A stretch of DNA of 64,000 bases from Acidipropionibacterium jensenii DSM 20535 (GTDB lineage Bacteria > Actinomycetota > Actinomycetes > Propionibacteriales > Propionibacteriaceae): positions 186,001-250,000 of the forward strand of contig NZ_AUDD01000001.1 of assembly GCF_000425285.1 (NCBI RefSeq). The letters are read 5' to 3'. The position numbers and the translations under genes are program-made. A model generated the notes under the pieces. It searched no databases and was not told the DNA's origin. It saw only the letters and a list, made by a program, of their open reading frames with translations. Below, in pieces: positions 32,057 to 35,237 of this stretch (the first letter of the stretch is position 1; each line of letters begins with the position of its first letter).

Positions 32057-32847
32057 CGCGGGCCCGCGAACCAGCGGTCCAGCTCGGCGGAGGTACCACC
32101 CTCGTCGAAGGTGCCGGTCACCGCGTTTGCCACCTGCTGGACGGACTCGGGGGCGTCTCCCATGGCCACTCCGCGGCCGGCCCAGGCGAGCATCTCCATG
32201 TCGTTGTGGCCGTCCCCGATGGCCAGCACCTGCCGGGGGTCGATGTCGCGCCTGTCGCACAGCGCCTGGAGGGCGGAGGCCTTCGACACCCCGCGGGGGG
32301 TGATGTCGAGCCAGGCCGACCAGCCGATCACGTAGGAGACGCCGTGCAGGCCGAGATGTCGGGCCAGCTCGACGAAGTCGGCGGGCGGGGCGTCGGGATC
32401 GCGGATGATGACCCGGGCCGCCGGTCTGGAGGCCAGCTCCTCGGTGGACTCGATGGTGAACTCGCCCTGCAGCTCGCCGGCCGGGAAGAGCCGGTTGAGC
32501 CGGTAGCCGACGCCGACATCCTCGACGGCGATGATGGCCGAGGGATGAAGGTCGAGGACCTGGCGGATCACCGGGCCCGGATCGAAGCGCACCTCGTCGA
32601 GGACGGTGAGCGGGGAGGTGCTCACGGTGACCGCGCCGTTGGAGACGACCAGGTCGCCGGCCGGCAGTCGGAGGATGTCGTGGACCGGCAGGGCGCCGAA
32701 GAGCCCGCGACCGGTGGCCAGGACCACCGGGACGCCGGCGCCGGTGATCCTCTCGACGGAGTGCTCGATCGAGGTGGGCAGCAGTCCTTGACGGTCGACC
32801 AGAGTGCCGTCGATGTCCAGGGCCACGAGGTGCGGGGTGAAGCTCAT
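32053..32847 (-). CDS. HAD superfamily Cof-type hydrolase (sugar phosphatase)
   Basis: A 264-residue haloacid-dehalogenase-like phosphatase of the Cof/IIB class. ALDIDGTLVD contains the two catalytic Asp residues, VLATGRGL is motif II, and AIGDGHNDMEMLAWAGRGVAMGDA is motif IV; the cap domain lies between. Members dephosphorylate sugar phosphates or nucleotides; a role in the neighbouring oligosaccharide pathway is inferred. It overlaps the LacI gene by ATGA, so both are on one transcript. GGAGGG precedes ATG 32847. Confidence 0.88.
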   Translation of the reverse strand: MSFTPHLVALDIDGTLVDRQGLLPTSIEHSVERITGAGVPVVLATGRGLFGALPVHDILRLPAGDLVVSNGAVTVSTSPLTVLDEVRFDPGPVIRQVLDLHPSAIIAVEDVGVGYRLNRLFPAGELQGEFTIESTEELASRPAARVIIRDPDAPPADFVELARHLGLHGVSYVIGWSAWLDITPRGVSKASALQALCDRRDIDPRQVLAIGDGHNDMEMLAWAGRGVAMGDAPESVQQVANAVTGTFDEGGTSAELDRWFAGPR

Positions 32848-32903
32848 GCCCTCCACCCTGCCATCGCGGCGTGAACCGCGGATGACAGGGCTGGTGGGGG
32901 CGG

Positions 32904-33470
32904 TCAGGCGGCGCGGGCCGCCGGCGCCGCGCGACGCATCCTGGTCACCGACTCGAAGGCGGTGATGAGCTGGCCGCGGCTGGGGCCGCGGGGGATCAAC
33001 GGGGTGGGTTCGCAGGCCTGGGCGCGGGCCCTGCGGAGATGGCGCTTGACCGTGGAGAGGGAGCATCCCAGGCTCTGGGCGATGAAGTCCAGGGGCTCAT
33101 CGGGATGGGCGCGACGAAGTCTCACGACGTCGTGGGTGGCGATCTGGCGTCCCGAGGAGAGGATGCCGACCAGGGCGTCCATGTCGTCGGGCTTCACCTC
33201 GACGTGGAGCAGGTTGCGGATCCGGGTGCGCTGGCGGCTCGTGGTGCCGGCGACGAATCCGGCGATGTCGTGGCCGCTGATCGCGGTCTCGAGGCAGTCG
33301 TCGAAGTGGGGGCAGCTCATGCAGACCTCGGTGGCCCGGGTGGTGAGCGTGTGGTGGAGCCGGCGCTGCTCCGCATTGGCCGGGCTGGCGTCCTCCTCCA
33401 GGAAGGGGTGGTGGAACACCTCGGTGAGGAGTGAGCATGGGGGGACGCGGTTGGCAGTCGTGCTGGTCAC
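32904..33470 (-). CDS. WhiB family regulator fused to a C-terminal HTH
   Basis: A 188-residue protein. The first 85 residues are a WhiB domain: C12, C50, C53 and C59 (CMSCPHFDDC) fit the four ligands of its [4Fe-4S] cluster, and GFVAGTTSRQR replaces the usual G[VI]WGG turn followed by basic residues. Unlike most WhiB proteins (80-130 residues) it continues through a helical linker to an HTH resembling sigma-factor region 4 (PLDFIAQSLGCSLSTVKRHLRRARA, 126-150). It may bind DNA by itself, rather than only through sigma factor. The GTG start at 33470 has AAGGG upstream. It is transcribed from the gap towards argG. Confidence 0.8.
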   Translation of the reverse strand: MTSTTANRVPPCSLLTEVFHHPFLEEDASPANAEQRRLHHTLTTRATEVCMSCPHFDDCLETAISGHDIAGFVAGTTSRQRTRIRNLLHVEVKPDDMDALVGILSSGRQIATHDVVRLRRAHPDEPLDFIAQSLGCSLSTVKRHLRRARAQACEPTPLIPRGPSRGQLITAFESVTRMRRAAPAARAA

Positions 33471-33665
33471 TGGAGATCCCTTCTCCGGGGTGCTCGATGT
33501 CTGGTGATCGCGGGTCCTGCTCTGGGCGCCGCGGTCACGGCGATGGGACGACGTGGGCGCATCGATGGTTCCTTCAGGTGCTGGATCTCAGCCTGCCACG
33601 GATCTGGGGCCCGGCTGTGACTCCCCTGTAGGCGCCGCTACCCGAATTACCTGAGTAGACGACGG
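33471..33665. other. Gene-free stretch upstream of the WhiB gene
   Basis: No supported gene. It holds the WhiB leader and promoter region on the minus strand; I could not pick a convincing -10/-35 pair. High GC, ending at the long palindrome at 33666-33697. Confidence 0.5.
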
Positions 33666-33697
33666 AACGCCACTGAGTACAGGTACTCAGTGGCGTT
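33666..33697 (-). terminator. Long perfect hairpin downstream of argG (terminator without U-tract)
   Basis: AACGCCACTGAGTAC and its exact complement GTACTCAGTGGCGTT (15 bp each) flank a 2-base centre. It lies about 73 bases after the argG stop. There is no run of T on either side, so it is an 'I-shaped' actinobacterial terminator candidate; it could alternatively be a protein-binding palindrome for the WhiB gene. Confidence 0.5.
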
Positions 33698-33770
33698 TCG
33701 GGGATCCGGTTCCGGGCTCTCCGAACCGGTGTCGGTCGGGAGTCAATCTACCGGCGGGAGGGGCGCGCGA

Positions 33771-35237
<1,467 letters not shown>

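Follow-up and report, generated by a model that had tools for sequence, protein, structure and literature searches.

The window considered here is the whole stretch of 64,000 nucleotides from Acidipropionibacterium jensenii DSM 20535 that was analysed. On its minus strand, positions 32904..33470 hold a gene for a protein of 188 amino acids, with a GTG start at 33470-33468 and a stop at 32904-32906. The product combines a WhiB domain with a helix-turn-helix (HTH) and is referred to below as WhiB-HTH. To judge from its conservation, the open reading frame is real and not a chance one, because it is kept as protein in relatives, with 27-78% identity across 55 of them. The WhiB domain covers residues 12-87 (33210..33437, minus strand) and is delimited by Pfam, an AlphaFold2 model and the invariant cysteines C12, C50, C53 and C59. 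It is followed by a tri-helical HTH at residues 112-153 (33012..33137, minus strand), identified by Pfam, AlphaFold2 and invariant residues, whose recognition helix lies in GCSLSTVKRHLRRAR. A further helix at residues 165-176 (32943..32978, minus strand), seen in the alignments and the model, carries a recurring VLxAFxxV-like motif, and the protein ends in Ala-Ala (32907..32912, minus strand).

Family membership is supported by both profile and residue evidence. PF02467 (WhiB) matches residues 41-83 with 29.7 bits against a cut-off of 23.6, and this score above the curated cut-off and the predicted WhiB fold are both shared with the Wbl family. The four cysteines are invariant in 30/30 and 56/56 aligned WhiB-HTH sequences, and in all 56 they show the C-Xn-C-X2-C-X5-C arrangement of Wbl proteins. 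Alignment A1 (n=30) omits L007-L009, which duplicate the window, L006 and L005; alignment A2 omits L075 and L080 from 28 listed sequences. At E<=0.01, the WhiB model is found in 30 of the A1 sequences, Sigma70_r4 in 29 and Sigma70_r4_2 in 28. NCBIfam returns nothing above its cut-offs for WhiB-HTH, and neither Pfam nor NCBIfam has a model that spans the whole WhiB and HTH architecture.

An AlphaFold2 model built from a 56-row alignment has a mean pLDDT of 82.8 and a pTM of 0.60, with two confident domains (block means of 89-96 for residues 11-90 and 90-94 for residues 111-150) separated by a linker in which the blocks of residues 91-110 average 66 and 52. Solved structures of WhiB3, WhiB1 and WhiB top the fold comparison, aligning with the model from residue 1 or 7 to residue 87 (Z 5.8-6.6 over two comparisons, in one of which Z is 6.0-6.6 over 70-74 residues). 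Foldseek alone finds no PDB match at E<=0.001 and places seven WhiB chains first, at E 0.1-0.4. An earlier note on this DNA had described the reading frame at these positions, a WhiB half with four cysteines and an HTH at residues 127-149, and had made its proposal depend on the C-terminal helices forming an HTH fold. The first two are present as described, and in the model the C-terminal helices do form that fold, with HTH helices at residues 127-134 and 138-153 (the second ending at 152-153) that agree with the proposed position. Residues ~101-162 match Tn3 resolvase, DesR, DosR and several sigma region 4 domains (Z 4.8-5.8), and Myb-like and transposase HTHs match equally well (Z 4.8-5.8). 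The structure matches are modest overall (Z 5-6.6), and rows for unrelated HTHs score as high.

The HTH had also been called sigma-region-4-like, which is a fair description of its sequence. Pfam scores Sigma70_r4_2 at 25.0 bits against a cut-off of 25.7 and Sigma70_r4 at 23.9 against 24.1, the two matches spanning residues 130-150 and 114-150; the region-4 cut-off for a sigma-70 factor is therefore not reached. The predicted fold is just as near to HTHs of the NarL type, of resolvases and of other kinds. At E<=1, neither Pfam nor NCBIfam yields a match to sigma region 2, which a WblP-type fusion should have. As modelled, the C-terminal domain is a generic three-helix HTH and not a sigma domain as such. 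One could still suppose that the HTH, left over from a fusion of a Wbl domain with an ECF sigma factor, no longer reads DNA and is either a relic or a module for contacts between proteins. Such a fusion is described for WblP in a review (PMC6282962), and sigma region 4 is indeed the nearest Pfam sequence model to the HTH. The missing region 2 speaks against this origin, and the pattern of conservation is unlike that of a relic: the recognition helix is the densest stretch of invariant residues in the protein, with G135, C136, S137, S139, T140, K142, R143, H144 and R146 all unchanged in 56/56 sequences. A relic is thus very unlikely. Among these residues, C136 is a fifth invariant cysteine (56/56), located in the turn of the HTH (33063-33065, minus strand). 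It might be redox-active, or simply part of the GCS sequence that is common in region-4 HTHs.

WhiB-HTH is widespread within one bacterial order. In the Propionibacteriaceae, 117 of 197 sampled genomes have a match at E<=0.001, of which 114 reach E<=2e-20 and the remaining three are at the level of ordinary Wbl proteins. The gene is present in all five Acidipropionibacterium genomes, and two named relatives in the genus match at 77%. Full-length profile matches extend to two more families of the order, here f2 and f3: in f2 they are found in the listed genomes of genus g30, and in f3 in most genomes of g31 and in 2/2 of g37. Genus g33 and family f4 have ordinary Wbl-level profile matches and nothing more. 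Outside the order, no full-length match is found among the matches listed for 394 genomes of the class and 296 of the phylum, in searches where the profile was applied to no more than 8 candidates per genome for the class and 11 for the phylum. Most genomes have a single copy. Two strong copies occur in G134 (C1:105803-106345 and C2:544568-545026), and two tandem copies are found in G259 of family f3 (L139, G259:C12:695562-696897). The gene can also be lost, because it is absent from some complete genomes, for instance G110. Among viral contigs, 33 stretches fitted a search pattern and none was confirmed. Collections of plasmids and of phages yielded 13 and 28 records, respectively, and in no case was 80% of the query covered. 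Of four such records that were inspected, P0002 alone was kept; P0003 and P0004 were rejected, having a WhiB domain and no HTH match. A match in phage Oscar was likewise rejected, since it spans two genes.

The surroundings of the gene recur between loci, which makes the WhiB-HTH locus look old and chromosomal as far as gene order can tell. They were compared in 40 fetched loci plus the window (n=41), with open reading frames picked by homology between loci and no gene caller; the WhiB-HTH gene falls into its own cluster at 39/41 loci and is lost to overlapping frames at L116 and L119. The neighbours include genes which, judged by eye, we take to be seryl-tRNA-synthetase-like (34/41 loci, opposite strand), HAD-like (30/41, either strand), quinone-oxidoreductase-like (26/41) and prephenate-dehydratase-like (19/41). 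The gene bpa, encoding a proteasome activator, is more firmly named: the one member scanned scores 261 bits with PF10759. It lies upstream of the WhiB-HTH gene at 23/41 loci, on the same strand in 23/23, and its products end in GMYL or GLYL in all 23, for example Bpa/PafE at L131:10057-10662 (minus strand). Bpa was considered as a requirement of the locus and rejected, because the window has argG at that position, a statement that concerns the locus only.

The end of the protein is more conserved than the tail just before it, which is variable. Ala-Ala terminates 28/30 orthologues and a final Ala 30/30, compared with 7/445 and 52/445 of neighbouring open reading frames, a background from which frames cut by locus ends are excluded. 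In the wider set of 56 orthologues, 34 end in AA and 52 in A; the 22 that end otherwise than in AA have VA, LA, TA, SA, SV or VG. tmRNA tags end in ALAA in 8/8 genomes of the order. There is also a precedent among Wbl proteins, as the last five residues of mycobacterial WhiB1 are enough to destabilise GFP in a ClpP2-dependent manner (PMC3946367). Because the Ala-Ala tail is conserved, resembles the tmRNA tags and has this precedent, we infer that it is a candidate Clp degron.

The region upstream of the gene contains a candidate operator. The palindrome TGAGTACnnGTACTCA at 33674..33689 precedes the start codon by 204-219 bp, a distance that leaves room for a leader. A further half-site, TACTCA, is located at 33652..33657 (minus strand), at a distance of 22 bp from the palindrome's proximal half. 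Since 22 bp correspond to two helical turns, it would be on the same face of the DNA, and this suggests cooperative binding. Next to it, at 33638..33644 (minus strand), is the element CGGGTAG, which adjoins the half-site in upstream alignments of several genera. In the five Acidipropionibacterium upstream regions, TGAGTA-N4-TACTCA is invariant within diverged flanks and accompanied by the extra half-site, and CGGGTAG is found in four of the five. The leader has a conserved stretch of its own, TGGCAGGCT at 33590-33598 (minus strand), kept in 5/5 aligned Acidipropionibacterium sequences and readable in four of the five as a tiny open reading frame, ATG/GTG GCA GGC TGA. Rfam gives no match at E<=0.1 for 32800-33900.

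Across a set of 49 upstream regions, in which regions sharing the last 200 bases were counted once, all 12 palindrome bases are matched in 10, at least 11 in 13 and at least 10 in 18, leaving 31/49 with fewer than 10. Shuffled sets have a mean of 0.2 regions with at least 10 bases (maximum 2) and none with 12. Pairs of half-sites are placed 10 bp from each other in inverted orientation in 13/49 regions and 22 bp from each other in direct orientation in 7/49, where 0.01 is expected for each, and no half-site spacing rises above 2 in 200 shuffled sets. The palindrome in the window and in two relatives is contained in a long hairpin (33666-33697 in the window) with arms of 15-19 bp, which could double as an argG terminator. 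That the hairpin is merely this terminator was rejected as the whole story, since L110 and L111, which have a divergent gene upstream, keep the palindrome core with arms of 8 bp.

Whole-genome scans, made with exact or 2-mismatch patterns, indicate that the exact site is close to unique where it occurs. In 23 genomes that carry the gene, exact TGAGTA-N4-TACTCA occurs 12 times in 11 genomes and is missing from the other 12. Ten of the 12 sites fall some 200 bp ahead of the WhiB-HTH gene and two elsewhere in the genome; the counts are not independent, as five of the ten genomes with a promoter site belong to one genus. A reversed-pattern control has four sites in the same 23 genomes, every one of them in Acidipropionibacterium. 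Another 19 genomes, comprising eight of genus g13 with the gene and 11 of the family that have no full-length match, yield a single site, as does the control; this site is in g13, away from the gene. The palindrome is accordingly missing from the promoter in 8/8 of the g13 genomes scanned that have the gene, and 11/11 of the family genomes scanned that have no full-length match contain no copy of it. Upstream of the g13 genes (L013-L019, L113-L115), conserved repeats around TAGACGAAAGTCGAA and CTGTCCAAAAGTACAG occupy the place that the TGAGTA palindrome has in other genera.

A second palindrome is associated with the gene in family f2. There, TTGGNTGCANCCAA occurs exactly once in 6/8 gene-bearing genomes of 7.5-8.5 Mb, each time 230-260 bp ahead of the point where the WhiB-HTH match begins, and its exact form is absent in the other two. 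It is found in 0/6 genomes of g33, the genus that has no full-length match, and the reversed-pattern control has two sites in the 14 genomes. By our reading, the TGAGTAC and TGGGTGC half-sites are alike (5/7), with the f2 halves closer together. The association between palindrome and gene is therefore strong in certain clades, and elsewhere it is missing or takes another form. Scanning ten genomes with two mismatches gave 1-6 sites each against 0-7 for the control, and no regulon is claimed because these counts are no better than the control.

Such a site might belong to another regulator of the gene, with WhiB-HTH acting on other targets. The palindrome varies between clades, yet the recognition helix is nearly constant, which counts against binding of the palindrome by WhiB-HTH itself, and no further set of sites stands above the control level. 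It would be an odd arrangement for an unrelated regulator, however, to have about one site per genome, placed beside a gene that encodes an HTH and differing in sequence in two families; moreover, the TGAGTA and f2 palindromes are missing from the family and g33 genomes that lack a full-length match (11/11 and 6/6). One candidate of this kind is HspR, whose HAIR motif is CTTGAGT-N7-ACTCAAG. It was rejected as the owner of the site, because the spacing here is N6, the T before TGAGT is found in 1/10 perfect sites and the outer bases are variable. Another regulator is thus an unlikely explanation, and a near-single-copy palindrome at an HTH-encoding gene appears, from these sequence comparisons, best explained by autoregulation.

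The WhiB half differs from its relatives in the beta-turn. At residues 71-75 (33246..33260, minus strand) WhiB-HTH has GFVAG where Wbl proteins have G[I/V]W[G/A]G, a Trp-bearing turn described as a motif of all Wbl proteins in a 2023 study (PMC10245118). The change from GVWGG to GFVAG had been pointed out before and is confirmed, and the loss of the Trp is shared by all aligned orthologues: the Trp position is occupied by V in 43 sequences, A in 9, L in 2 and C in 2, and never by W (n=56). In the same genome, three more Wbl proteins were found, and these have GVWGG, GIWGG and GVWGG. WhiB-HTH is placed beside the canonical Wbl classes because this motif is lacking, and on sequence grounds it is best regarded as a WhiB-domain protein outside them. 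The turn also bears on whether the protein needs a sigma factor. WhiB-HTH could be an ordinary Wbl protein that sits on region 4 of sigma-A and requires RNA polymerase, with the HTH contributing no more than an extra contact to DNA, in the manner of the WhiB7 AT-hook. The WhiB fold is predicted to be intact, and two papers report a similar sigma-A4 interface for WhiB1, WhiB3 and WhiB7 (PMC10245118) and a DNA-binding motif with an autoregulatory loop for WhiB7 (PMC6282962). Set against these parallels are the loss of the turn Trp in 56/56 sequences and a promoter palindrome with an extra half-site, which resembles the site of a dimeric HTH protein. A sigma-dependent mode of action is accordingly not the expected one, and we consider it about as improbable as a foreign regulator at the palindrome.

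We favour a model in which WhiB-HTH is an Fe-S-sensing, autoregulated and protease-unstable transcription factor that binds specific DNA sites by itself, and assign it a probability of roughly 65%. In this model the N-terminal WhiB domain would hold a [4Fe-4S] cluster on C12, C50, C53 and C59. The state of the cluster, set by a signal such as O2, NO or Fe-S supply, would alter how the protein packs or dimerises, and an HTH dimer would bind the inverted repeat TGAGTAC/GTACTCA before its own gene. Autoregulation would most likely be negative, although this sign is a guess. The C-terminal Ala-Ala would mark the protein for Clp, allowing its level to reset quickly. Negative autoregulation combined with fast turnover may then produce short pulses of WhiB-HTH when the cluster is lost or repaired. 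The earlier suggestion of autonomous DNA binding is partly supported, in that the protein has a confidently predicted HTH of its own and that, in part of the clades only, its promoter bears a nearly unique palindrome, which would fit. A more speculative and rather improbable idea is that the HTH imitates sigma region 4 within the protein itself: the holo WhiB domain would clamp it off the DNA through the face that otherwise contacts sigma-A4, and cluster loss or nitrosylation would free it for the palindrome. Were this the case, WhiB-HTH would show the partnership between Wbl proteins and sigma factors folded into one polypeptide and independent of RNA polymerase.

How Wbl proteins choose their promoters has been an open question, and WhiB-HTH offers an HTH of its own with a short, near-unique candidate site. 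A 2018 review names WhiB7 as the only Wbl protein with a recognised DNA-binding motif and describes site-specific action as partner-dependent (PMC6282962). In the 2023 study, WhiB3 has an Arg-rich DNA-binding motif of low sequence specificity and sigma-A4 is still its partner; the same text mentions an earlier prediction of a helix-turn-helix for the basic C-termini found in many Wbl proteins (PMC10245118). The idea of a Wbl protein with an HTH is hence not new, because this fold had already been predicted for many Wbl C-termini. In the favoured model the cluster state would gate DNA binding without a sigma factor. A single protein and a single DNA of 40-70 bp would be enough to test this directly, and the gene's own promoter is a natural reporter. 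If the Ala-Ala tail is a degron, WhiB-HTH would join WhiB1 as a WhiB-domain protein controlled by turnover.

The architecture had been called rarely described, with the reservation that it might be a common annotated subfamily. It is common in the genomes of one order, but it corresponds to no Pfam or NCBIfam model, and the open-access literature searched contains no description of it, which is not the same as absence in print. A domain search does find other proteins with a WhiB domain and an HTH, their HTH matches lying below the Pfam cut-offs, and the architecture is under-described rather than unique, because these other types exist. One is encoded by the Streptomyces anulatus plasmid NZ_CP109401.1 (L170:1339-1887, plus strand; WP_331759124.1), which has a WhiB domain, an HTH-like end and a similar C-terminal helix motif. 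It differs from WhiB-HTH in its GIVAG turn and in a diverged HTH that scores below the Pfam cut-off, and its eleven best matches in 296 genomes of the class are WhiB-HTH family members. Another type, outside the order in a different family of the class (L186-L188), joins WhiB to HTH_23-like ends with GVAGG or GIAGG turns, the HTHs again being below the Pfam cut-offs. Each of these genes (L186:695-1174, minus strand; L187:563-1054, plus strand; L188:476-964, minus strand) adjoins a small open reading frame ending in SHAA, NHAA or IDAA. The Streptomyces-like proteins L081-L083 have the same N-terminal WhiB variant with long, different C-termini, and by eye the ends of L081 and L083 resemble a winged HTH.

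WhiB-HTH can be compared with several known systems. With Wbl classes I-V it shares the WhiB fold, four cysteines with CxxCx5C and PF02467, and it is distinguished by the missing turn Trp (0/56), an HTH of its own, a length of ~180-200 amino acids and first and second cysteines that are 38 positions apart. Wbl proteins are further marked by binding a [4Fe-4S] cluster and, for the members that have been characterised, region 4 of sigma-A. WhiB7/WblC likewise pairs a Wbl domain with its own DNA-binding element and is described as having an autoregulatory loop (PMC6282962). Its element is an AT-hook that contacts the minor groove and works with sigma-A, whereas WhiB-HTH has an HTH and a palindromic candidate site; the RGRP AT-hook of WhiB7/WblC is absent from its sequence by eye. 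WblP is similar in layout, since according to the same review a Wbl domain is joined to an ECF sigma factor (PMC6282962), a protein that should hold a region-4 HTH. Going by that description, WhiB-HTH is set apart from WblP in having no region 2 and in being chromosomal and widespread in one order. In the regulators FNR, SoxR, IscR and NsrR, an Fe-S sensor is combined with an HTH. WhiB-HTH would operate in the same way, with an Fe-S sensor, an HTH and a palindromic site, but on the scaffold of a WhiB domain.
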